A DNA stretch of 42,061 nt, from positions 1 through 42,061 of the forward strand of contig JAKSCU010000296.1 of the NCBI GenBank assembly GCA_022360435.1, read 5' to 3'. This document shows positions 7,699-20,100 of this stretch, one piece after another (the stretch's first letter is position 1; every line of letters starts with the position of its first letter). Source of the stretch: Bacillota bacterium. GTDB taxonomy: Bacteria; Bacillota; Desulfotomaculia; Desulfotomaculales; Desulfallaceae. Below the pieces are notes generated by a model. That model saw only the letters and a program-made list of their open reading frames with translations. It was not told the origin of the DNA and searched no databases. The position numbers and the translations under genes were made by a program.

Positions 7699-9051
7699 CT
7701 AACCGGTGGAGCCGGCGCTGACCAGTTTGACGACTTTATTGTTTAACAGGTGTTCAGGCACCATGTCGTTTCGGATTAAGTCTTCGTAAGACTCCCTGGC
7801 CACGATAATGTCGGCTCTGCCGTCGCCGGCCAGCACCATGGCGGGCCGGGGCAGGCGGTTGTAATTCATGGACATGGAGTAATTGTAAGCGCCGGTGGCT
7901 GAAATCGCCAGGATATCGCCCGGGTGCGGCGCGGGCAGTTTGATGTCCCATATCAGCATGTCGCCCGACTCACAGCATTTGCCGGCTATGGACACTATTT
8001 CCTGGGGTTCCTCCGACGCCCGGTTGGCTAAAAGGGCTTCATAGCGGGACTGGTACATGGCCGGCCTGGGATTGTCTACCATACCGCCGTCCACCGCCAC
8101 ATATTTGCGAACGCCGGGGATTTCCTTGACCGCCCCCACGGCATAAAGAGTGGTTCCAGCGGGGCCGCTTATGGAACGGCCCGGCTCCACCAGCACCTTA
8201 GGCAGCGGCAACCCCCCGTCCCGGGCCAAGTCGCGCACAACCTGCACGGCGGCATCAGCGTAGTGCTCCACCGGTTTTGGTTCGTCACCCTCGGCGTAAT
8301 AAATCCCCAAACCGCCGCCCAGGTTGATTTCTTCCGGTGACCAACCCGTCTCGCGATGCGTTGCGACGGCGAATTCCATCATCACCTCGGCGGCGTGACT
8401 GTAAGACTCGAGTTCAAATATCTGGGAGCCGATGTGACAGTGCAGGCCCCGCAGACGCACATTTTGCATGGCCAGGGCGCGCTTGATTATTGCCAAAGCC
8501 TGACCGTTTTCTATAACCACGCCGAACTTGCTGTCCACCTGGCCGGTTTTAATATACGCATGGGTATGGGCTTCCACCCCCGGGGTCAGGCGCAGAATAA
8601 TGTCGGCCACAGTGCCGGCGCGGCCGGCCAAATCGTTTAGGGTTTCCAATTCGTAGTTATTATCAACCATAATCCGGCCTACTTTGTAATCAAGAGCCAT
8701 TTTTAATTCATTTTCCGATTTGTTATTGCCGTGGAAAAAAATCCTGTCCATAGGAAAACGGGCTTGCTTGGCGGTATAAAGCTCTCCCCCCGAAGCCACA
8801 TCAAGCCCCAACCCCTCCTGGTCCACAATATGGCATACCGCCAGAGTAAGCAGTGTTTTGCCGGCGTAAATAACCATTCCTTCGTATTTTTCGGTAAAAG
8901 CACGGTAGTAGCTGCGGCAGTTTTGCCGGAAATGGGTTTCATCCAAAACATAAAGCGGCGTGCCGAATTGCCGGGCCAGCTCAACTGTGTCGCAGCCGCC
9001 TATTTCCAGGTGGCCTTGGCGGTTAATCTCCATGGTGCCTTGCAATTTCAT
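7699..9051 (-). CDS. lysA: Diaminopimelate decarboxylase
   Basis: This fold-type III PLP enzyme converts meso-diaminopimelate to L-lysine, the last step of lysine synthesis. The PLP lysine is in YAGKTLL (K65). LRGLHCHIGSQI, the glycine-rich INLGGGLGI, EPGRSISGPAGT, the catalytic GKCCESGD and GAYNYSMSMNYN are all present. At 450 residues it is slightly longer than usual. The ATG at 9051 follows GAGGAGG; MEINRQG six codons later is a possible alternative. The gene stands alone, with its own promoter and a lysine riboswitch leader, so it should be shut off when lysine is plentiful. Confidence 0.97.
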   Translation of the reverse strand: MKLQGTMEINRQGHLEIGGCDTVELARQFGTPLYVLDETHFRQNCRSYYRAFTEKYEGMVIYAGKTLLTLAVCHIVDQEGLGLDVASGGELYTAKQARFPMDRIFFHGNNKSENELKMALDYKVGRIMVDNNYELETLNDLAGRAGTVADIILRLTPGVEAHTHAYIKTGQVDSKFGVVIENGQALAIIKRALAMQNVRLRGLHCHIGSQIFELESYSHAAEVMMEFAVATHRETGWSPEEINLGGGLGIYYAEGDEPKPVEHYADAAVQVVRDLARDGGLPLPKVLVEPGRSISGPAGTTLYAVGAVKEIPGVRKYVAVDGGMVDNPRPAMYQSRYEALLANRASEEPQEIVSIAGKCCESGDMLIWDIKLPAPHPGDILAISATGAYNYSMSMNYNRLPRPAMVLAGDGRADIIVARESYEDLIRNDMVPEHLLNNKVVKLVSAGSTG

Positions 9052-9158
9052 GAAAATTACTTCCTCCTCAATCTAATTTTTATAAGTAAATCCAAATAGC
9101 ATAAACAAATCTAAACTTTGCAAAAAATCAAACATGGGAAGCAGGTCCCGACATTGCA

Positions 9159-9420
9159 ACAAAAAGCCGTCTTTCAGCGGAGTGAAAGGCGGCCGTAAGA
9201 CTCGATAACCCTTCGTCTCCCGGCAGATAGCACATCACCCGGCAGTTTTGGCGCTTGGCCGGGTGACAGTGCGGCATCTCTTTAATGCCGCACCAGCCCG
9301 GCCAAGCGGGTTGCTTGAACCGGACTTCGGCGGTTTGTCCTTTCGCCGCGGTTCAAAGGCAACCCGTACCTCCCCGCGGTTATTGATACAACCCGCACCT
9401 CTACCCACCTCCTCGCGGAG
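9159..9420 (-). promoter_or_regulatory. Lysine riboswitch (L box) with terminator, upstream of lysA
   Basis: Read on the minus strand, the leader contains the conserved L-box elements in order: TAGAGGTGCG (9394-9403), GCCGAAG (9325-9331), then GGCTGG followed by a hairpin and CTGTCA (9264-9269). These are the core of the lysine aptamer. The aptamer is followed by a GCCGCCTTTCA/TGAAAGACGGC stem and TTTTTGTT (9159-9193), an intrinsic terminator expression platform. About 110 nt then lead to the lysA start. Lysine binding would favour the terminator, as known for this class. The full fold was not computed. Confidence 0.92.
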
Positions 9421-9442
9421 ATGAGGTTATACAGTTTCGCAT

Positions 9443-9472
9443 ATTTTAACATGTTTTATCCAGTTAAGTCAA
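9443..9472 (-). promoter_or_regulatory. Sigma-A promoter for lysA
   Basis: On the minus strand there is TTGACT (9467-9472), an 18-nt spacer and TAAAAT (9443-9448), each 5 of 6 to consensus. Transcription would start near 9436, just ahead of the lysine aptamer. Confidence 0.7.
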
Positions 9473-9535
9473 TTTAACAGAACAAATAGGACCGGGCGAC
9501 TTACTCCTTTTAAGAAGTTGCCTGCTTCTATTGGC

Positions 9536-10894
9536 TCAACCGACCTGCGGCAGGCTTTGCAGCGACTTGGCCAATATATCTTCAGGCAGCGGGTAATCCT
9601 CCAGCCTGCCGGTCAAATAAGCCTCGTAAGAAGGCATGTCCAGCAGGCCGTGGCCGCTGAGGTTGACCAAAATAGTGCGTGACTCGCCGGCCTCCTTGGC
9701 GGCCAGAGCTTCGTTGATGGCGCACTGGATGGCGTGGGAAGATTCCGGAGCCGGCACAATGCCCTCGCTGCGGGCAAAAAGCTTGGCGCCTTCAAACACC
9801 GAGGTCTGGTCCAGGGCCACAGCCTCGATAAAACCGTCGTGCACCAGCTGGCTAAGCAGCGGCGAGTCACCGTGGTAACGAAGCCCGCCGGAATGGATAC
9901 CCGGCGGCATGAATCCCGCGCCCAAAGTGTACATGTTGACCAGCGGGGTCAGCCCGGCGGTATCGCCAAAATCGTAGGCGAACTTACCGCGGGTCAGGGT
10001 GGGGCAGGCCGAAGGTTCCACACCCACCAGCCGCACCTTGGCTCCGTCTGTTTGCTTGTCGTAGAAAAACGGGAAAGCGATGCCGCTGAAATTGCTGCCG
10101 CCGCCGCAGCAGCCGATGACCACGTCGGGGTAGTCCCCGGCCTTGGCCATTTGCTCCCTGGCTTCCAAACCGATGACGGTCTGGTGCAGCACCACGTGAT
10201 TCAGCACGCTGCCCAGGGCATAGTTGGTGTCGTCGCGCTGGGCGGCAATTTCCACCGCTTCGCTGATGGCGATACCCAGACTGCCCGGGGTGTCCGGGTC
10301 GTCGGCCAGCGCCTGGCGACCGAACTTTGTTTCAGTGCTGGGGCTGGGCAACACACTGGAGCCGAAAATTTCCATCATGGTGCGGCGGTAAGGTTTTTGG
10401 TTGTAACTGACTTTAACCATGAAAACCCGGCACTCCATGCCAAAAAAGTTGCAGGCCTGGCTGAGGGCGATGCCCCACTGGCCGGCGCCGGTTTCGGTGC
10501 TCAGGCGCATGATGCCTTGTTGCTTGTTATAGTAGGCTTGGGCCACGGCGGTGTTGAGCTTGTGGCTGCCCGCCGGGCTAACGCCTTCATTTTTGTAGTA
10601 AATCTTGGCCGGTGTGTCCAGGGCCTTTTCCAGGCGGCGGGCCCTGTACAAGGGTGAGGGACGCCAGAGCCGGTAGATATCTTGCACTTCATCGGGAATC
10701 TCAATCCACCGCTCCCGGGTTACTTCCTGCTTGATCAGTTCCATGGGGAAAATGGCCGACAGGTCCTCGGGACCGATAGGCTGCCCGGTGCCCGGATGAA
10801 GCGGCGGCTTGGGCGGGTTGGGCATGTCCGCCATGACGTTGTACCACTTTTCCGGCATTTCATTTTCCGTGAGCAAAATTTTAACTTCACTCAT
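9536..10894 (-). CDS. trpB: TrpB-like pyridoxal-phosphate enzyme (tryptophan synthase beta 2 type)
   Basis: The protein is about 452 residues, longer than classical TrpB (about 400), and matches the TrpB2 subfamily. The PLP lysine is in [10 protein letters not shown] (K112). The phosphate-binding loop is GCCGGGSNF, and the N-terminus has the TrpB2-specific [10 protein letters not shown] and [13 protein letters not shown]. It can make tryptophan from indole and serine. Because no trpA or other trp gene is nearby, indole salvage rather than full biosynthesis is the likely role (inference). ATG 10894 is preferred to an upstream TTG because AGAGGAG precedes it. An inverted repeat (10921-10955) lies in its leader. 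Confidence 0.93.
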
Positions 10895-10920
10895 CTCTTC
10901 TCGTACTCCTCTCTGCAATA

Positions 10921-10991: not shown

Positions 10992-11966
10992 TCAGCTAAT
11001 TTTTTGCTCCCGGTCCGGGGCAATGTTCCACCGCCCGCAGCGGTCTCCCCAGCGGGCGATAACCTTCCCGTTTTCCTGGATTTCCACCACTTCGCAAACA
11101 TTGGGGCAGCCGTCGCAAGCAAAACCGCCGCTGTGGAAGTCCCTTTCAGTGACACAGAAACCCCTGAAGCCTGTTTTCTTGCGGTTTGTGCTTTCCCGGG
11201 CCAGCATGGCCGCCCCCAGGGCGCCCATGACGTTATAATAAGGGGGAACGGTCACTTCCACACCCAAGGCCTTTTCAAAAGCCCACTTCATCCCGGCATT
11301 GGCGGCGACGCCACCCTGGAAAACCACCGGCCCAAGTATTTCTTTGCCCTTGCCCACATTGTTCAGGTAATTGCGCACCAAGGCCTCGCAAAGCCCGGCC
11401 AGTATATCCGATACATTATAACCCATCTGCTGTTTGTGAATCATGTCGCTTTCCGCGAAAACCGCGCACCGGCCGGCGATTTGCACCGGCACTCCGGACT
11501 TGAGGGCCTGGGGTCCGAACTCCTCAATATCGATATTCAGGCGGGAGGCCTGCTGGTCCAGGAATGATCCGGTTCCCGCGGCGCACACCGTGTTCATGGC
11601 AAAATCAACCACCACGCCGTTGCGCAGTATAATAATTTTGGAGTCCTGGCCGCCTATTTCCAGGATGGTTTGCACCCCGGGCACCACGTTGGACGCGGCA
11701 ATGGCGTGGGTGGTAATTTCGTTTTTTACCACGTCGGCGCCGGTGATCACGCCGGCCAGGTGCCTGCCGCTGCCGGTGGTTCCCACGCCTGCTATTACGG
11801 CTCCGGCCGGCAGCGCTTTTTGCATCAGTTTCAACCCCTGCCGCGCCGCTTCAATGGGCCTGCCCCGGGTACGCATGTAAATGCTGTGTTTTACCGTACC
11901 GTCCTCACCGGTGGCCACCAGGTTGGTGCTTACCGAACCTACGTCTATCCCAAGGTATATGTACAT
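10992..11966 (-). CDS. Acyl-CoA dehydratase activase (BadF/BadG/BcrA/BcrD ATPase, HgdC-like)
   Basis: This ASKHA-fold ATPase contains GIDVGSVSTNLV, GVGTTGSGRHLAG, ILEIGGQDSKIII and FQGGVAANAGM. C128 (in VCAAGTG) and C167 (in GRCAVF) match the two cysteines that bridge a [4Fe-4S] cluster between HgdC monomers. HgdC-type proteins use ATP to push a low-potential electron into a partner enzyme. At 324 residues it is longer than HgdC (about 260). The extra tail holds C271, C284, C287, C291 and C310 and may bind another cluster (inference). It abuts the upstream partner gene and forms a three-gene unit with it. The target enzyme is unknown. Confidence 0.9.
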   Translation of the reverse strand: MYIYLGIDVGSVSTNLVATGEDGTVKHSIYMRTRGRPIEAARQGLKLMQKALPAGAVIAGVGTTGSGRHLAGVITGADVVKNEITTHAIAASNVVPGVQTILEIGGQDSKIIILRNGVVVDFAMNTVCAAGTGSFLDQQASRLNIDIEEFGPQALKSGVPVQIAGRCAVFAESDMIHKQQMGYNVSDILAGLCEALVRNYLNNVGKGKEILGPVVFQGGVAANAGMKWAFEKALGVEVTVPPYYNVMGALGAAMLARESTNRKKTGFRGFCVTERDFHSGGFACDGCPNVCEVVEIQENGKVIARWGDRCGRWNIAPDREQKIS

Positions 11967-13064
11967 TTAGGCTGTAACCTCCCCGACATCTCTTTTTCGG
12001 GCCAACAGGTCGACAAAAGCTTCAAGTCTGGTGACCATGCCGGCCTCGCCCGACATCTCGTCCACAATTAAAGTCATTACCGGAATATTATGGTCGGCGC
12101 TGACCCGGGGCAGTATGCTCTGGGCCACGATCTCCGGCATGCAGGTGAAAGGCAGCAATTGAATTACGCCGTCGTAATCCTGCTTGGCGTAAATCATGGT
12201 GCTTCCCACTGTTTCCAGCCCGTGGCCGCCCACCATGTGGCCCAGGTAGGCCAATCCTCTTTCTTTGGCGAGTTTGCTACTGTGTTCGTTTTTGGCCAGA
12301 CCCAGGAAAAGATGATCGTTTACCCACTGGCTGAGATGAATGGAGCGGTCGACCTCAACCCCCAGAGCGCCCAGTTTGCGCTCAATTTCCATGTTGGCAA
12401 AGGGTTCCAGCAGGGTGAAAATTTCTCCCACCAGTCCCACCCGCGCCACCGGCTCGTGTGAACCCACTTGCACACCGCGCATTATTTCCATTGCTTTCTC
12501 CCTGGCGGCAGGCATTTCTTCGGGGGTTTCGGCGGCGATAACCTCGGCCAGCGCCTTTCTCAGGAGCCGGTCGGTTTCACCCGCCACCAGTTCCCGGGGA
12601 CGGCAGTAAAAGGCTTTTTTCTCCATTTCATCCACCGCGCTGGCCTTTAAATAACCCAGACGGATACCCTTTATTACCTTATACAAGGAACGGTTGTTGG
12701 TAATGTGTCTAATCTTGCCGATTAATTCACCAATATGTTTTTGCGGCGGTTCCAGAACAACCAGCCGGTATTGATAACCCAGGTCCCGCAGGATGGCATG
12801 TTCCACCTGGGCATAATAACCGAACCGGCAGGGACCGCACCCGCCGGCCATCACCACGGTATCCGCGCCCATTTCCGCCGCTTCCATCAAGTTGCCCAAG
12901 TTAAGCTTTAACGGCATGCAGGCGAACTCGGGGCCATGCTTCATACCAAGCTGCAATGTTTTTTTACTGGAAGGCGGCGGAATGACCACATCCATATCCA
13001 GGTATTCAAGCATGGCTTTGATGCAAATCCACATGTGGCCCATGTGAGGGTAAGTAACTTTCAA
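11967..13064 (-). CDS. Acyl-CoA dehydratase activase-related protein (COG3581-like)
   Basis: The 365-residue soluble protein has conserved Cys motifs FACMPLK (C49), GGCGPCRFGYY (C76, C79), FYCRPREL (C154) and FTCMPE (C308). Its C-terminal block is DEMSGEAGMVTRLEAFVD. It belongs to the 2-hydroxyacyl-CoA-dehydratase-like/activase-associated group, often found fused to HgdC-like ATPases in one giant protein. TTG 13064 is taken as the start: a GGGAGTG site lies 8 nt away and the preceding gene ends 22 nt upstream, whereas a longer reading would overlap it. It probably binds an Fe-S cluster and receives electrons from the activase. The reaction is unknown. Confidence 0.82.
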   Translation of the reverse strand: MKVTYPHMGHMWICIKAMLEYLDMDVVIPPPSSKKTLQLGMKHGPEFACMPLKLNLGNLMEAAEMGADTVVMAGGCGPCRFGYYAQVEHAILRDLGYQYRLVVLEPPQKHIGELIGKIRHITNNRSLYKVIKGIRLGYLKASAVDEMEKKAFYCRPRELVAGETDRLLRKALAEVIAAETPEEMPAAREKAMEIMRGVQVGSHEPVARVGLVGEIFTLLEPFANMEIERKLGALGVEVDRSIHLSQWVNDHLFLGLAKNEHSSKLAKERGLAYLGHMVGGHGLETVGSTMIYAKQDYDGVIQLLPFTCMPEIVAQSILPRVSADHNIPVMTLIVDEMSGEAGMVTRLEAFVDLLARKRDVGEVTA

Positions 13065-13086
13065 AGCTGTATCACTCCCATCGGGT

Positions 13087-14067
13087 TCAGAGTGTTGCCG
13101 CCACGTCGGCCAGATTTCTCCGCCAGCGCACCATGTCCAGGAAGGCTTCCAGACGGGTGACCAGGCCGGCCTCACCGGTATGTTCATCCAAGGTGAGGTT
13201 GAGCAGAGGTTTACGGGAGCCGTTGCGGGCGTGCCTTTCGATCAACTCGCCGGTAAAAGAATCCGGCCCGCAACCGAAGGAAGCCACATGGATCAGACCG
13301 TGTATCTCATCCCGGCCAAAGAAATGATAAGCCGCGCCAATCATGCGCTGGTTGACGGTCCAAAAAAGCTTTTTGGGTAGTTTTTGCGCTTCCGCGCGGA
13401 TGACCGAATCCGTTAACTGGTCCGCTGTCAACACCCTGGCGCCACTTTTATTGAGTTTGTCAATCATGTTCATACTGATATAACGATCGTAAATATTGTA
13501 AGGGTGACCGATTACAGCGACGCTTACACCGCCCGGCACATCTTCCGGACCGGAAATGGGTTCGCCGCCGGGCTGTATGACACCGGCCAGCAGATGTCTG
13601 AAATGCTGTTTCAACGCGGCCCGGGAAGCGTTATAGGCCATCCATATCCGGGCCGGGTTGCGGGTGAAAAGCCTGCCGACCCGGTAATAGAAATCCGAGG
13701 GATTGCTGCCTTTGTTATACAAATTGAAGTTGTAATCGATCAAAGGAGGCAGGTCCTCGACGGTATGCCGCACCATGTCCGGGAAACCGAGAAATTTGGG
13801 GCAAATATATTCCCGCCTGGCGGTGCTGACAATACGCGGCACAAAAATATAATCCGCGCGGCGGCGCAGGTCCATTACGTGCCCCACCGCCAGTTTAACG
13901 GGCAGGCAGGCTTCGTCCACCGAGGATTTAAGACCGTTTTCAAGTAAGCCGCGGGTGGTTTCCCGGGATACGACGGTTTCAACTCCCAGGTGGCGGAAAA
14001 ACGTTTCCCACTGGGGATAATAGTAGTAATACAGCAGGGCTCTGGGAATACCCACTTTTACCGGCAT
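13087..14067 (-). CDS. DUF2229 activase-related protein (COG3580-like)
   Basis: The 326-residue protein opens with VGIPRALLYYYYYPQW, the DUF2229 signature. It has cysteines C54 (EACLPVK), C89 (YICPKF) and C266 (SFGCGPDSF), and ends with DEHTGEAGLVTRLEAFLD. The first and last motifs parallel those of the downstream protein, so the two look like distant paralogues that may form a heterodimer sharing Fe-S ligands (inference). The gene is first of the three-gene unit. GGAGGA lies 10 nt before the ATG. A small palindrome, CATAC-TTTT-GTATG (14109-14122), lies upstream and could be an operator. Confidence 0.82.
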   Translation of the reverse strand: MPVKVGIPRALLYYYYYPQWETFFRHLGVETVVSRETTRGLLENGLKSSVDEACLPVKLAVGHVMDLRRRADYIFVPRIVSTARREYICPKFLGFPDMVRHTVEDLPPLIDYNFNLYNKGSNPSDFYYRVGRLFTRNPARIWMAYNASRAALKQHFRHLLAGVIQPGGEPISGPEDVPGGVSVAVIGHPYNIYDRYISMNMIDKLNKSGARVLTADQLTDSVIRAEAQKLPKKLFWTVNQRMIGAAYHFFGRDEIHGLIHVASFGCGPDSFTGELIERHARNGSRKPLLNLTLDEHTGEAGLVTRLEAFLDMVRWRRNLADVAATL

Positions 14068-14273
14068 GTTGATTTAGTCCTCCATCTTTTGCATGCGTAT
14101 TGAGTATCATACTTTTGTATGGCTGCACTAACTTAGTATGACCAAAAAAAGATTGGTTATACTGTGTCAGGCACTCTAAAATGCCACAAGTTTACAAACC
14201 CGGCAAACCGGAAACCGCCCGCAAGCAAAAGGGCGCGTTAATTTAAGTTAACATAACCAAAATAAATAGGATC

Positions 14274-14306
14274 GGGGCGCCAAATCAGTTTACAATCCGG
14301 CGCCCC
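14274..14306 (-). terminator. Hairpin after spoVAF
   Basis: GGGGCGCC (14274-14281) pairs with GGCGCCCC (14299-14306) across 17 nt. It lies 40 nt past the spoVAF stop. The minus-strand T content after the stem is modest. Confidence 0.55.
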
Positions 14307-14345
14307 TTTGCTTCAACCAATCAAGGGTTTTTATGCAATTCTTTA

Positions 14346-15883
14346 TTATTTCTTCTTTTCTATCGTTTTGCTCCCGCCTTTGCCCGCTTTGCGGGCCGGT
14401 TGCGGCATTCCCTGGCGGCTGGAGTCCCGGGGCTTTAATATGCTTGGCCTGATGTTGGTGGTGGGCACCGGGCGCCTGACCAAAATGCCGGCCAGGGCCT
14501 TGGCGTTGAACGGGATTAACGGCCACAGGTACGGTACGCCGAAGGAACGGGTAAAGATTAACAGCGCCAGCGATAGCACCAGCCCGATAATGAACCCCGG
14601 CAGGGCGAACAAGCCCACCATCACAATTAAGAATAGTCGGATCAACCGGTTGGCCAGGCCCAGTTCGTAGCTGGGGGTCAGGAAGGTGCCCACCACGGCG
14701 GCAGCGGTGTACATCACCACTTCGGCGTTAAACAAGCCGACGGTCACCGCTATATCACCGATTAAAAGAGCGGCGATCAATCCCAGGGCGGTGGCCAGGG
14801 CGGTGGGGGTGTGGATGGTGGCCATGCGCACCATGTCCACAGCCAACTCGGCGATAAGAAACTGCAAAAAATTGGTATGGCCCCTATTTTATCAGGACCG
14901 ATAAATTTCAAAGCAGGCGGCAGGAGCTGTGGCTGCAGCACCGCCAAAAGCCATAGGGGCATCAAAAAGAGGGATATCCCGACGCCCAGAAACCTGACCC
15001 AGCTCAAGTAAACGCCCGGGGCGGGGCTTTGCCTGTATTCCTCGGCGTGCTGCAGGTGGTGGAAGTACGTAGCCGGCGTAATCATAACGCTGGGCGAAGT
15101 ATCCACCATTACCAGCACGTGCCCTTCCAGCAGGTGAATGGCGGCCACGTCGGGTCGTTCGGTATAGCGTACGCGCGGCAGCGGGTTCCAATAGCTGCCT
15201 GGTGTAATCAGCTCCTCTACGGCCTTTTCAGCCATAGGCAGACCGTCCAGGTTAATGCTGGAAATTTTTTCGCGAATACTGTCCACCAAATCTTCATTGG
15301 CAATATCTGCAACATAGGAGATAACAATATCGGTCTTGGAGCGATTGCCGGCCTGGACATATTCCATACGCAAGCGTGGGTCGCGGATCCGTCTTCTGAC
15401 CAGGGCGGTGTTGAATACCAGCGTTTCTGTAAAACCATCCCGGGAACCGCGCACCACCTTTTCCAGGTCGGGTTCGGCGGGGCTGCGCACCGGGTAGGTC
15501 CGCACATCCAGCAGGATGGCTTTTGCCGAGCCGTCGACAAACAGAGCCAGCGGCCCGGACAACATTTTTTCCACCACATCTTCCAGATAATCGCTTTGGG
15601 CAACTTCAACGTAATTGATGTGCCGGTTAAAAAGTTTCTGGAAAGCGTCCACGCACAAATCTTTGCGTTCCAAAGTGGTGAGGTTGCGCAATATCTCGGT
15701 CATCAGCTCGGCGTTGGCGAAGGCGTCCACGAATAGCATCAGTGTCTTTATGCCGCCGATTGTCATTTCCCGCCGGACAATATCAAAATTTTTATCAAAG
15801 GCCAGTTTTTCGTCCAGCAGGTCTTTATTGGATTCCAGGTCCTTGCTCAACCTGGTCTTATGTTCAATGGCCGCGGGTCCCAT
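14346..15883 (-). pseudogene. spoVAF: SpoVAF / GerA-type spore germination protein, interrupted by a one-base frameshift
   Basis: The first part (15883 to about 14867) has the GerA N-domain, with LFVDG, PFVDTSPSV-like MVDTSPSVMITP and membrane segments. The frame then breaks after KIGAIPIF. The remainder continues in another frame (14346-14867) as LQFLIAELAVDMVRMATIHTP and SYELGLANRLIRLFL, exactly the next expected SpoVAF segment. Adding one T to the six-T run (plus-strand A-run 14866-14871) restores a product of about 512 residues, close to the B. subtilis protein (about 490). SpoVAF is a membrane germination protein. ATG 15883 follows AAGGAG; it overlaps the end of spoVAEA. Real mutation and sequencing error cannot be told apart here. 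Confidence 0.88.
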
Positions 15884-16457
15884 TACCGTATTCACTCCTT
15901 GTTATTATTTCGCGCAGGGCCTTGGTGGTCAGGGGCGCCCCGATGGCGTAATCGTCGGCGCCATCCATCTTGCCTACGTCGCCGATGCCGACGACAACCG
16001 GGAGTTTTAGCTTGTCAAGCAGTTCGACTGTGTCGCCGCTTAAAGTTCCGCCGCTGTCCCGACTGGTCTGTCCGAATTTATCGACGGGAGCGTCAACTAG
16101 GTTTCCCCGGCAGTCGACGGATAAGTGAACATGGGTGCCGCTATTGGAACCGCTGTTGGAGGCCACCGCCAAAACTCCGAGAATGTTAATGTCCTTATGA
16201 CCGGCCAGGAGGGCCAGCGCCGATTCGCCCCGTCCCTGACCCTCGTATCCCCGGTCGTCCAGCATTACCACCACGGGTTCGTGGGCCGCTTGTTTGATGA
16301 GCTCCACCAATTTTTCCCCGGATATGGCCGTGGGATTTCCGCCCGAGGCTGAGATACACCGGGCTCCCACATTTCGCGCCGCGACTTCCACCGCCCTCTG
16401 GGCCGCCCGGTCACCGTCGGTAACTGCTATCACATTTACGGGCTTTTTCAGGGGCAT
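15864..16457 (-). CDS. spoVAEA: Stage V sporulation protein AE, soluble form (SpoVAEA)
   Basis: The 197-residue cytosolic protein has NVIAVTDGDRAAQRAVEVAA, GARCISASGGNPT, VVMLDDRG.EGQG and GDTVELLDKL.VPVVVGIGDVGKM-like blocks, all matching SpoVAEA of B. subtilis. In Bacillus it belongs to the forespore spoVA operon for dipicolinate uptake; the individual role of EA is unclear. ATG 16457 is chosen because GGAGGG lies 8 nt upstream; an in-frame ATG eight codons earlier has no site. spoVAF overlaps its 3' end. The usual spoVAA, AB, AC, AD and AEB neighbours are absent. Confidence 0.92.
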   Translation of the reverse strand: MPLKKPVNVIAVTDGDRAAQRAVEVAARNVGARCISASGGNPTAISGEKLVELIKQAAHEPVVVMLDDRGYEGQGRGESALALLAGHKDINILGVLAVASNSGSNSGTHVHLSVDCRGNLVDAPVDKFGQTSRDSGGTLSGDTVELLDKLKLPVVVGIGDVGKMDGADDYAIGAPLTTKALREIITRSEYGNGTRGH

Positions 16458-16520
16458 ATTTGACACCCTCCGTATGAACATATATAAAGTAAGGACACCT
16501 TTCCGGTGCCCTTGCCCATG

Positions 16521-16715
16521 TTAACTTTTGTGAGCTATTTTAACGTTGGCCTTGTAATCGACAACTTTGCCGTTTTCCACGTTGGCGGTAAAGTTCACCA
16601 CTTCCACGCCGACGATTTTATCAGTTGATTTGGCGGCTGCGTCTACCGCGGATTGCACGGCGCTGCGCCAGCCTTCGTTGGACTCTCCCACCATTTCCAA
16701 AACCTTGACGTGCAA
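16521..16715 (-). CDS. Dodecin (flavin-binding storage protein)
   Basis: At 64 residues this matches the dodecin family. HVKVLEMVGES, GWRSAVQSAVDAA (with the flavin-stacking Trp), VVNFTANVENGKVVDYKANVKIA and the basic tail are all present. Dodecins assemble as dodecamers and bind riboflavin, FMN or CoA. TTG 16715 is the start: AGGAGG (16725-16730) lies 9 nt upstream and the family begins right at HVKV. It sits between sigF and spoVAEA, in the place where other spoVA genes lie in Bacillus, which hints at expression in the forespore (inference). Confidence 0.93.
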   Translation of the reverse strand: MHVKVLEMVGESNEGWRSAVQSAVDAAAKSTDKIVGVEVVNFTANVENGKVVDYKANVKIAHKS

Positions 16716-16784
16716 AATTAGCGACCTCCTTTGCTGGATATCTTGTGGCAATTGTATTATTTGTAATGTACTGATTTTTATACT

Positions 16785-17564
16785 TTAATATGCATTTTCC
16801 ATCATCAGGTCCCTTATTTTTTTTAAAGCCTGGCGTTCCAGGCGAGAAACTTGTACCTGGGAGAGACCCAATTTAACGGCAATTTCTCCCTGGGTTTTGT
16901 CGGCGAAAAAACGCCATAAAAGGATCAAACGGTCCCGGTCGGGGAGATGTTTAAGCACTTCCTTAACCGCAATATTGTCTAGGCGCGGCAGCATGGAACT
17001 GCTGTCCTCGCTAAGCTGGTCCAGCAAATAGATGGGGTCTCCGTCTTCCTGGTGTAATGTCTCGTAAATTGAGGAAGGAGGCTGAACAGCTTCCATGGCT
17101 GTCACCACTTCCTCCCGGGTCAGGCCTATTTCCGAGGCGATTTCGTTAACGGTGGGCTCCCGACCGATTTTGGCCATCAGAGCTTCTCTGCCTTGCTGCA
17201 CCCTGTATGCCGTTTCTTTGATCGAACGACTAATTTTGATGGGATTGTCGTCTCTTAAAAAACGCCTGATTTCTCCGACGATCATTGGGACGGCATAGGT
17301 GGAAAAGCGAACATTAAAGCTGAGATCAAACTTGTCTATGGCTTTCATCAGACCGATGCACCCGATCTGAAAAAGGTCTTCCAATTCATATCCGCGATTA
17401 TGGAAGCGCTTGACCAGATTAAATACCAGCTTCAGGTTGCAGTTAATCAACCGTTCCCTTGACTGGGCGTCCCCTTTTTGCGCCCGGGCCAGCAGTTCCT
17501 TCATTTCTTCATCTGAAAGCAGGGGGAACCGTGGCAGGTTCATTTCATTTAATTTGCCGCTCAT
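16785..17564 (-). CDS. sigF: RNA polymerase sigma factor SigF (forespore-specific)
   Basis: The 259-residue sigma-70 family protein has all regions: region 2 (YELEDLFQIGCIGLMKAIDKFD, FSTYAVPMIVGEIRRFLRDD), region 3 (EPTVNEIASEIGLTREEV) and region 4 (DKTQGEIAVKLGLSQVQVSRLERQ). SigF is the first compartment-specific sigma factor of sporulation and is held inactive by SpoIIAB. It is the third gene of spoIIAA-spoIIAB-sigF. GAGGGGG precedes the ATG, and the gap to spoIIAB is 15 nt. The operon placement rules out SigG. Confidence 0.96.
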   Translation of the reverse strand: MSGKLNEMNLPRFPLLSDEEMKELLARAQKGDAQSRERLINCNLKLVFNLVKRFHNRGYELEDLFQIGCIGLMKAIDKFDLSFNVRFSTYAVPMIVGEIRRFLRDDNPIKISRSIKETAYRVQQGREALMAKIGREPTVNEIASEIGLTREEVVTAMEAVQPPSSIYETLHQEDGDPIYLLDQLSEDSSSMLPRLDNIAVKEVLKHLPDRDRLILLWRFFADKTQGEIAVKLGLSQVQVSRLERQALKKIRDLMMENAY

Positions 17565-17579
17565 TCCAAAACGCCCCCT

Positions 17580-18020
17580 CTATTGCTCTTGCGCCGCGGC
17601 GCGACGCGGCGCGCCGGCCCGCCTGCTCATTTTAACCCTGGCACCCTGACCTGGAGCGGATTGTACGGCAAGTTTATCCATGAACGACCGCATAAAAGAG
17701 AAACCAAGCCCCATCCTTTCCGGGTGGGTTGAAAAAGCCGGTTCCATAGCCTTTTCAATATCTTCAATGCCTTTTCCATAGTCAACTACTTCCATCTCCA
17801 TGTATTCTCCGGCAATGTTGATTTCCAGCCGGACCAACTGTTCCGGGTCGTTTTCATAAGCGTGGATAATAGCGTTGGACACCGCTTCGGATACGGCTAC
17901 CTTGATCTCCTCAAGGTCCGATATAGTAAAATCAAGCTGGGAAACAAAAGCGGCTGCCGCCACTCTGGCAAAGGCCACATTTTCCACCCGGCTGGAAAAT
18001 TCAAGCACCACATTGTTCAT
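17580..18020 (-). CDS. spoIIAB: Anti-sigma F factor / serine kinase SpoIIAB
   Basis: The 146-residue GHKL-ATPase-type kinase has the N-box EAVSNAIIHAYEND, the G1 motif VVDYGKGIEDIE and the G2 loop GLGFSFMRSFMD. It binds and inhibits SigF and phosphorylates SpoIIAA. The C-terminus is unusually Arg/Ala-rich (RRAGAPRRAAAQEQ) and looks unconserved. GGGGAGG lies 9 nt before the ATG. It is the second gene of the SpoIIA module. Confidence 0.96.
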   Translation of the reverse strand: MNNVVLEFSSRVENVAFARVAAAAFVSQLDFTISDLEEIKVAVSEAVSNAIIHAYENDPEQLVRLEINIAGEYMEMEVVDYGKGIEDIEKAMEPAFSTHPERMGLGFSFMRSFMDKLAVQSAPGQGARVKMSRRAGAPRRAAAQEQ

Positions 18021-18099
18021 TTTTAAAAGCCTCCCCTTAATATGAATACCGGTTCTCTATTTTATTTGGTTTCCCCTGATAAACAAGCGCCTTACCTTT

Positions 18100-18453
18100 T
18101 TAAAGGGAACTATTTAACTGATTTTGTTCCAGGACCGCGTCGACGGACGGATAATTCTCCATGAGCGTTAACAGTCCGGACAACTCCAGCACCTTACCGA
18201 CTTGCAATCCGGCGCCGGCCAGGTAAACACTGCCGCCGGCCGCGGAAAGTCTTTTATAGCGGCCCAGGACAACCCCGAGCCCGGCACTGTCAATAAAACT
18301 CACCCCTGAAAAATCGAACACCAGATTTAAAAGGTCGCTTTCCCTTAAAGCCTTTTCCACATTGTCCCGCAGGGAATCAGTCACGCTGATGTCTATTTCA
18401 CCGGACATGGAAACCACCAGATAATTGTTTTCTTTTTTAATTGTATAGTTCAA
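18100..18453 (-). CDS. spoIIAA: Anti-sigma F factor antagonist SpoIIAA
   Basis: The 117-residue STAS-domain protein has GEIDISVTDSLR and FSGVSFIDSAGLGVVLGRYK, with the phosphorylatable Ser near residue 56 in the DSAGLG loop. Unphosphorylated SpoIIAA displaces SigF from SpoIIAB. The start is TTG 18453 after GGGGTGA. The 79-nt gap to spoIIAB is longer than in Bacillus. The operon is expected to be driven by sigma-H and Spo0A; only a possible promoter is seen upstream. Confidence 0.96.
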   Translation of the reverse strand: MNYTIKKENNYLVVSMSGEIDISVTDSLRDNVEKALRESDLLNLVFDFSGVSFIDSAGLGVVLGRYKRLSAAGGSVYLAGAGLQVGKVLELSGLLTLMENYPSVDAVLEQNQLNSSL

Positions 18454-18740: not shown

Positions 18741-19910
18741 TTACTTGGTTAACGCATGGTTCAGGACTTTGTACATTTGCTGGACAATGGACGCCCTGGG
18801 GACATCGCTTTGTGCCACAAGCGGAATTTTTGTTGTCTCCCGGCTATCTCTCAGGACAATAAAGTAGCCAATTTTTTGCCCTTTCTTCACCGGCGCTCCG
18901 ACGTTCTCCGGCAGGTCGGCCTGGCCGTTGTAATGCTGTTTTTCTCCCTTGGGAACGGCCAGGGCAATGTCGGACGTCGGGACAACGCCAACCCGGTCCC
19001 GGATTCCTTTGCTCACTTGCACAGTGGCCAACTTATCTCCCTTTTGGGCGAAGCTCACAACTTCGTAACGGGCAAAACCGTAATTAAGGACTCTGATCGT
19101 TTCCCGGAAGTGGCTCCTGGGTTCCGGTGTGCCCAGAACTACGGAAATCAGCCGCAACCCGTCCCGTTCGGCGGTGGCTGCCAGGCAGTACTTGGCTTCA
19201 TCGGTCCAGCCGGTCTTACCGGCATCTACGCCCCGGTACCACTTGAGCAACTTGTTTCTATTCCAGAGGACGAAATCGCCCCCCCTCAGGTCATATCTAT
19301 AAATGGAGGAGTATTCCCTGAAAACAGGATGCTTTAGCGCTTCGCGAAAAATAACGGCCATATCGTACGCCGAAGTGTAATGATTATCCGCCGGTAACCC
19401 GGTGCAATTGGCGAATTTGGTATGATTCAGGCCCATCTCTTTAACGCGTTCATTCATTAGCGCCACAAAAGCTTCTTCAGAGCCGGCAATATGCTCGGCC
19501 ACCGCCACGCTGGCGTCGTTGGCGGAACCAACCGCCACGGCGATTAACATTTCTTTCATACTCATTTCTTCACCGGGTTCCAGGTAGATTTGCGAGCCGC
19601 CCATTTTCCAGGCGTTTTCGGTGACGGTGACCCGCTCATCCAGCTTAATTTTACCCCGTTCCAACGCTTCGTTGGCCAACAGCGAGGTCATTATCTTGGT
19701 CACGCTGGCCATGGGCAGTTCCTTATCCGGTTCTTTGGACCATAAAATATTGCCGGTGGCATTGTCCATCAACACCCCCGATTCGGCGGTGGTTTCCAGG
19801 CCTGAGCCCGATGACTCATTTGCGCTTTCTTCCGCCGCCGGCGCAAGTCCCGCCGGGAAGAACAGCAACGTCAATGCAAAAAGAGCCGCAATCAGGTATT
19901 TTATTCTCAT
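18741..19910 (-). CDS. dacF: D-alanyl-D-alanine carboxypeptidase DacF
   Basis: This penicillin-binding protein of the S11 family trims peptidoglycan stem peptides. It has a signal peptide (residues 1 to about 25, ending APAA), SVTK at 69-72 (catalytic Ser), SAN at 129-131, KTG at 232-234, and the C-terminal PBP5-like domain. In Bacillus, DacF is made in the forespore and adjusts cortex cross-linking. Its position just upstream of spoIIAA on the same strand is the conserved dacF-spoIIA arrangement. ATG 19910 is chosen for its GGGGGAGG site and because it directly precedes the signal peptide. Confidence 0.95.
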   Translation of the reverse strand: MRIKYLIAALFALTLLFFPAGLAPAAEESANESSGSGLETTAESGVLMDNATGNILWSKEPDKELPMASVTKIMTSLLANEALERGKIKLDERVTVTENAWKMGGSQIYLEPGEEMSMKEMLIAVAVGSANDASVAVAEHIAGSEEAFVALMNERVKEMGLNHTKFANCTGLPADNHYTSAYDMAVIFREALKHPVFREYSSIYRYDLRGGDFVLWNRNKLLKWYRGVDAGKTGWTDEAKYCLAATAERDGLRLISVVLGTPEPRSHFRETIRVLNYGFARYEVVSFAQKGDKLATVQVSKGIRDRVGVVPTSDIALAVPKGEKQHYNGQADLPENVGAPVKKGQKIGYFIVLRDSRETTKIPLVAQSDVPRASIVQQMYKVLNHALTK

Positions 19911-20100
19911 TTTTTTCCTCCCCCGAAAATTCTGGCTCAAGATATTATGTGAAACTGAATAAAAGTTATACCGTCGGAAGTGTATAGTAATGTGTACATG
20001 TTATAAACAACTGCAACAAAAGATTGGGCTTAATCAGGCAGCAAGCCGCTGTGTCAAACCTTCGGCCCGGATTTGGGAAATGACCGCTGGCCGGGAAAAT

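Follow-up and report, generated by a model that had tools for sequence, protein, structure and literature searches.

What does an electron-activating ATPase work on when no recognised client enzyme is encoded beside it? The question is raised by three adjoining genes on the minus strand of a 42,061-nt contig from a Bacillota bacterium of the Desulfallaceae (JAKSCU010000296.1, assembly GCA_022360435.1; this whole stretch is called the window below). They occupy positions 14067 to 10992 and encode, in order of transcription, a DUF2229 (COG3580) protein, a COG3581-like protein and an HgdC/BadF-type ATPase, or archerase. A preliminary description of the DNA had presented this trio as an activase system for a candidate reductase or dehydratase, and had suggested that the ATP-driven electron may serve the two DUF2229-type proteins themselves or a distant client. 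Our analysis points to the former, the missing client of the ATPase being most likely the DUF2229-COG3581 pair itself, and on balance we favour a complete ATP-driven iron-sulphur (Fe-S) enzyme that, in spore-formers, is made in the forespore.

The DUF2229-COG3581 pair and its ATPase

The open reading frames (ORFs) bear out a three-protein unit with split modules. The DUF2229 subunit (14067-13087, minus strand like all genes discussed here; 326 aa) matches PF09989 over its full length (E 1.6e-52). After a gap of 22 nt comes the COG3581-like subunit (13064-11967, 365 aa, with a TTG start at 13064), which has a partial-length PF09989 match (40.7 bits against the Pfam cut-off of 29.4). The ATPase (11966-10992, 324 aa) follows with a gap of 0 nt and matches PF01869 (E 3e-46, 158.5 bits against 31.5) and TIGR00241 (180.3 bits against 125.4) in Pfam and NCBIfam. 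DUF2229 precedes COG3581 in 79 of 80 named loci, with HgdC next in most, a conservation of gene order that far exceeds chance. As had been remarked before, no dehydratase, coenzyme A (CoA) transferase or CoA ligase adjoins the trio in the window.

The predicted model of the window's DUF2229 protein (predicted local distance difference test, pLDDT, 92.3; predicted TM-score, pTM, 0.89) has as its top 18 Foldseek matches only subunits of double-cubane cluster proteins (DCCP), 2-hydroxyacyl-CoA dehydratases (HAD; here 2-hydroxyisocaproyl-CoA dehydratase) or class I benzoyl-CoA reductases (BCR), the best being DCCP, HadC and BzdN. Superposition over about 270 residues gave Z 16.5 for DCCP and 15.9 for HadC, and the first row from outside this family stood at Z 10.2. 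The fold of COG3581 was taken from its half of a natural 715-residue DUF2229-COG3581 fusion, which matches HadC with Z 16.7 over 306 residues and again has only members of this family at the top ranks; the pTM of the fusion model, 0.83, lends some confidence to the relative placement of its halves. A mixed alignment of fused and split proteins was left unused for folding because the paralogues in it were aligned to each other's ends. COG3581 and DUF2229 are paralogues (hhalign 99.9%, E 1e-34), and profile comparison relates both of them distantly to the HGD-D family (DUF2229 with E 1.2e-9, COG3581 with E 4.5e-10).

Each of the two proteins has exactly three invariant cysteines. These are Cys54, Cys89 and Cys266 in DUF2229 (13908-13906, 13803-13801 and 13272-13270; 45 of 45 aligned rows, the next best column reaching 15 of 45) and Cys49, Cys79 and Cys308 in the COG3581-like protein (12920-12918, 12830-12828 and 12143-12141; 36 of 36 rows, the next best column reaching 13 of 36). 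Both triads align with the invariant Cys39, Cys69 and Cys300 of HGD-D. Each member of the pair is predicted to have a cluster site, a point on which the preliminary description had made its proposal depend. According to passages in PMC11971306, BzdO holds an open [4Fe-4S] cluster by three cysteines, and six are used for the double cubane in BzdN and in DCCP. With three invariant cysteines per protein, the pair looks like a heterodimer of dehydratase type whose subunits have single clusters, and a double-cubane enzyme, which would need six for its [8Fe-9S] cluster, was rejected on this count.

One of the closest known arrangements is that of HadBC/HgdAB with HadI/HgdC, which likewise consists of two paralogous three-cysteine subunits and an ASKHA-type activase and has the same fold (Z about 16). 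The trio differs from it in several ways. The COG3581-like protein matches HGD-D at its C end with 20.7 bits, below the Pfam cut-off of 28.4, and the DUF2229 protein gave no HGD-D match in the Pfam scan, so that the cut-off of the classical 2-hydroxyacyl-CoA dehydratase family is not reached; the activase carries an extra four-cysteine (Cys4) extension; no genes of a CoA-ester pathway lie near the trio, and a forespore-type promoter is present. Moreover, the models of the pair begin only at the equivalent of HadC residue 27-28 (DCCP residue about 61-67) and lack the N-terminal segment. PMC11971306 states that an N-terminal helix contributes to the CoA channel of BzdNO, and a CoA-ester substrate should therefore not be assumed for the trio, the missing segment being suggestive only in these predicted models.

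DCCP with its ATPase partner DCCP-R (6eno, 7yyl) offers the closest fold to DUF2229 and is the only solved family that was matched by profile (E 3e-5), but DCCP is a homodimer with six cluster cysteines in each subunit, while the trio has two different subunits with three invariant ones each. The class I benzoyl-CoA reductases (BzdNOPQ, MbdONPQ) also combine a heterodimer of paralogous subunits with ATPases; compared with them the trio lacks the double-cubane cysteine set, has shorter subunits and possesses one ATPase gene instead of two. It is very improbable that the pair is a NifEN-like cluster scaffold or maturase and not a catalyst. The fused model did return a NifEN match, but one of low quality (E 8e-6, TM 0.17, root-mean-square deviation 17.7) and poorly superposed, with the HAD, BCR and DCCP matches far better, and turnover enzymes typically have a dedicated ATPase of archerase type. 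We regard the pair as very probably an Fe-S enzyme that has the BCR/HAD fold and is supplied by an ATPase of its own. The earlier proposal of an activase system thus stands as far as the tight trio is concerned, and the fold, cysteine and paralogy evidence favours its idea of an electron destined for the two DUF2229-type proteins; what changes is their part, since they would form the dehydratase/reductase-type heterodimer itself and not accessory modules.

Relatives of the ATPase are 1hux, 4eht, 9gai and 7yyl. Its predicted cluster cysteines, Cys128 and Cys167, match the same positions of 1hux and are each kept in 119 of 120 homologues (matches of at least 40% identity). The Cys4 extension at its C-terminus, CxxCx3Cx18C (Cys284, Cys287, Cys291 and Cys310; 11117-11037), falls past the region aligned with the solved activases (243-276 aa); it is kept in 117 of these 120 trio-type homologues, the other three being gapped there, and was found in 10 of 10 further ATPase copies too. 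The extension may bind either an additional cluster for electron entry or zinc. An ATPase of the type that activates methyl-coenzyme M reductase (methanogenesis marker 15) was considered and rejected, the score being 117.5 bits against an NCBIfam cut-off of 455.75. The four Actinomycetota loci (L165, L177, L183 and L193) have, after the trio, genes that we take from their domains to be NfnA- and NfnB-like, an arrangement consistent with electron supply by ferredoxin.

Family forms, copies and known dehydratases

The modules are often fused, as had been claimed. Besides the split trio we found fusions in the order DUF2229-COG3581 (about 720 aa), proteins of about 1000 aa (HgdC-HgdC-DUF2229, with a separate COG3581-like ORF; the L197-L210 set) and giants of about 1440 aa in the order HgdC-HgdC-DUF2229-COG3581. 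A Cys4 variant is present in the two giant proteins read, and the giants and the forms of about 1000 aa (L197-L210) look like one-chain counterparts of the four-subunit benzoyl-CoA reductase. A COG3581 match was found in 59 of 60 relatives, and the matches were grouped into orthologues of the window's protein (group A), paralogues of 43-49% identity (group B) and proteins fused to DUF2229 in a single ORF, about 720 aa long (group F). A tree was built from 136 COG3581 proteins. It places group B within a clade of 28 rows that has no spore linkage (SH-aLRT 99), and the fused forms make up one clade (SH-aLRT 100); spore-linked rows are spread across the remaining deep Bacillota branches, and many deep forks are weakly supported. 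Of the COG3581 rows collected, five identical sequences and those shorter than 300 residues or with stops had been dropped.

The genome to which the window belongs (626 contigs) contains two further trios, on contigs C98 and C160, both away from spore genes. The one on C160 lies near what we presume from their sequences to be genes for a cobalamin adenosyltransferase, a MeaB-like protein and a methylmalonyl-CoA mutase-like protein. Group B trios in general (L017, L079-L098) have MinC, NUDIX and DUF3786 genes as neighbours, and often adenosyltransferase, MeaB-like and mutase-like genes, which points to a different, non-spore role. The third, divergent trio of the genome (L016:7468-10501) stands behind a TetR-type regulator. 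Two loci, L243 and L244, are second trios with the ATPase gene between DUF2229 and COG3581.

Among 299 genomes of the phylum, 273 have DUF2229 in some form and 153 have HGD-D (E<=1e-15); the two occur together in 151 genomes, while 122 have only DUF2229, two (84% and 78% complete) only HGD-D and 24 neither. These and the two-way counts below, of DUF2229 or COG3581 against HGD-D or SpoIVA, were tallied by hand from lists. Dependence on a known 2-hydroxyacyl-CoA dehydratase, which the preliminary description had named as the case that would speak against it, was rejected with these counts, as 122 of the 273 DUF2229 genomes have no HGD-D at this threshold. The same numbers bear on the idea that the ATPase serves a distant client, be it an HGD-D protein on another contig or another Fe-S or corrinoid enzyme, with DUF2229 and COG3581 as adaptors or reactivation chaperones. 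Six full HGD-D proteins are indeed encoded on other contigs of the same genome, the C160 trio has the cobalamin-related neighbours just mentioned, and a reactivase packed into the forespore for oxygen-damaged enzymes at germination would fit. Yet those HGD-D proteins have short activases of their own on C519, C79 and C345, and both members of the pair carry a full cysteine triad of catalytic type. Together with the many DUF2229 genomes that lack HGD-D, this makes a distant client rather improbable, and we return to the pair as the client of its own ATPase.

A forespore-type promoter and the proposed role of the trio

When and where would such an enzyme be made? A predicted promoter of forespore (sigma-G/sigma-F) type, GTATA and CATACTA separated by 17 nt, lies at 14162-14134 on the minus strand, 67 nt before the DUF2229 start codon. 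The pattern GTATAN17-18CATAMTA has two matches in the 42-kb window against 0.01 expected, and the only other one (19971-19943, minus strand) precedes the dacF-type gene, an internal positive control; dacF and ytfJ are forespore genes. PMC3789822 places the spoVA genes of C. difficile in the sigma-G regulon and reports that the consensus elements of both sigma-F and sigma-G in that species resemble those of B. subtilis. Among upstream stretches of at least 120 nt, a wider pattern was found before DUF2229 at 14 of the 23 group A loci, with 0.12 expected, in 0 of 23 of group B and in 0 of 15 fused forms. A matrix trained only on 23 dacF, ytfJ and spoVA sites gave 17 of 23 (0.23 expected), 0 of 23 and 1 of 15, respectively. 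The motif is present in 25 of 304 upstreams of clustered genes in group A loci, namely 13 of 41 for the DUF2229/COG3581 cluster, 10 of 14 for dacF and two for spoVA, and no other gene class matched among these 304. In a clade whose trio has moved from the spoVA locus, six of 12 members (L145, L166, L171, L179, L188 and L194) keep the promoter at -52 to -59.

The position of the genes agrees with the promoter. In the window the order is dacF-type, spoIIAA, spoIIAB, sigF, spoVAEA, spoVAF, trio, TrpB-like, lysA, and it recurs in group A, in Thermincola, Desulfosporosinus, Orenia, Natroniella, Halonatronum and Fervidicola, and in many metagenome-assembled genomes, so that spore-formers from several families have the trio or the pair behind spoVA. 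Of 100 loci, 67 carry one or more genes of the spoIIA/sigF/spoVA clusters on the same strand; spoVAF is upstream in 48 of the 100, and 14 of these have gaps of -10 to 27 nt and are likely operonic. The trio thus shares both position and promoter type with the spoVA-associated sigma-G/F regulon, the promoter being of the right type and in the right place for membership, and as judged from the DNA the window's trio is quite probably expressed in the forespore.

Distribution points the same way. COG3581 of this type (E<=1e-30; 208 of 299 genomes) was found in 197 of 248 SpoIVA-positive and in 11 of 51 SpoIVA-negative genomes (Fisher p 5e-15, with kinship ignored). For DUF2229 in any form the link is much weaker (231 of 248 and 42 of 51, p 0.02), which indicates that the giants are not spore-specific. 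The preliminary description had foreseen neither this connection with sporulation by position, promoter and distribution nor the Cys4 motif of the ATPase.

Could the trio instead be a vegetative housekeeping reductase or dehydratase, and its place beside spoVA an old accident of gene order? The near-universal occurrence of the family in the phylum would agree with this, as would its presence in the non-spore-forming controls Thermotoga, Thermus, Deinobacterium and Lactococcus and the two further trios of the same genome that lie away from spore genes. We consider it unlikely, because the forespore-type promoter is conserved before the orthologues, is absent before the paralogues and is retained away from spoVA, because the gap between spoVAF and the trio (14068-14345) has no sigma-70-type site, and because this COG3581 type is so strongly associated with SpoIVA.

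Several observations weigh against a forespore enzyme with an ATPase of its own. Six of the 23 orthologues have no promoter above threshold, and among named loci the matrix matched in 11 of 74 and gave nothing above threshold in 63, counts in which related rows and genomes are not independent (L119 is from the same genome as L067). The sigma-G/F consensus used was checked against literature on C. difficile. This COG3581 type is held by the 11 SpoIVA-negative genomes and missing from 51 SpoIVA-positive ones. Group B, the C98 group and the fused forms are not spore-linked, and the family therefore has other roles. Finally, ten pairs have no adjoining ATPase and have to rely on that of a second trio; all ten genomes hold a Cys4-type ATPase in such a trio, which suggests that the pair is the core and that the ATPase can be shared, and in none of the ten (0/10) does the ATPase have a forespore-type promoter directly upstream.

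For the forespore enzyme that we favour, the following course of action may be proposed. A dimer of the HgdC-type ATPase would carry a [4Fe-4S] cluster, bound by Cys128 and Cys167 from each subunit, and Cys4 may provide a second site. It would take an electron from reduced ferredoxin, and ATP would drive its low-potential transfer into the DUF2229-COG3581 heterodimer, in which each subunit of BCR/HAD fold would hold one cubane-type cluster on its three cysteines; the open iron site of each cluster would be the place of substrate reduction or dehydration. Production in the forespore would start from the trio's own sigma-G/F-type promoter or from the spoVA operon, with the trio as its last genes, and the enzyme would act within the developing spore or be stored in it for use at germination. 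That it reduces or dehydrates a small molecule in the forespore seems to us somewhat more probable than that it reactivates another enzyme. We give an even chance to a dedicated forespore enzyme of anaerobes that either reduces a spore-core metabolite or recharges oxygen-damaged low-potential enzymes when an air-exposed spore germinates. A substitute for dipicolinate synthase was considered and rejected, since the genome itself and nine of nine genomes of the same order in the phylum sample have a DpaA-type match (TIGR02853, E<=1e-30), most of these matches falling below the curated cut-off of the family; a role in dipicolinate chemistry is only a thought.

Enzymes with the BCR/HAD fold carry out some of the hardest reductions in biology. 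The present analysis gives a phylum-wide branch of them a predicted architecture, with a client of its own, three-cysteine sites and an ATPase Cys4 motif, and a predicted place and time of action in the forespore. The location beside spore genes and the promoter of spore-compartment type suggest that the trio is an overlooked step in making or reviving spores. If so, the spore programme of anaerobes would have an oxygen-sensitive metabolic part that could not have come to light in B. subtilis as the model; a control search found no DUF2229 in B. subtilis. A full-text literature search for DUF2229, COG3580 and COG3581, with subscription journals and supplements outside its scope, returned unrelated papers only, and among literature joining activase or dehydratase names with sporulation none was found that treats the family as a spore gene; the word "activase" is absent from the main text of the sporulation surveys that were searched by term.

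Neighbouring features of the window

All features that follow are on the minus strand. Directly upstream of the trio, spoVAF (GerA family; 15895-14346) is read in two overlapping frames, 15895-14777 and 14867-14346, with PF03323 on the first. In relatives it is one ORF of 502-523 aa, and the split in the window is a frameshift or sequencing error. A weak terminator-like hairpin of 14 pairs lies between spoVAF and the trio (14306-14274), in a region whose seven hairpin sites are not above the 6.1 expected from shuffles. Farther upstream are spoVAEA, sigF, spoIIAB and spoIIAA (15864-18453; PF14097, TIGR02885, HATPase_c_2 and STAS) and the dacF-type carboxypeptidase (18741-19971; Peptidase_S11 and PBP5_C). 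Downstream, the TrpB-like enzyme and lysA together span 7699-10918 (Pfam/NCBIfam), and the TrpB-like gene (9536-10918), between the trio and lysA, is found in Desulfotomaculia-type loci (14 named) and is absent in most others.

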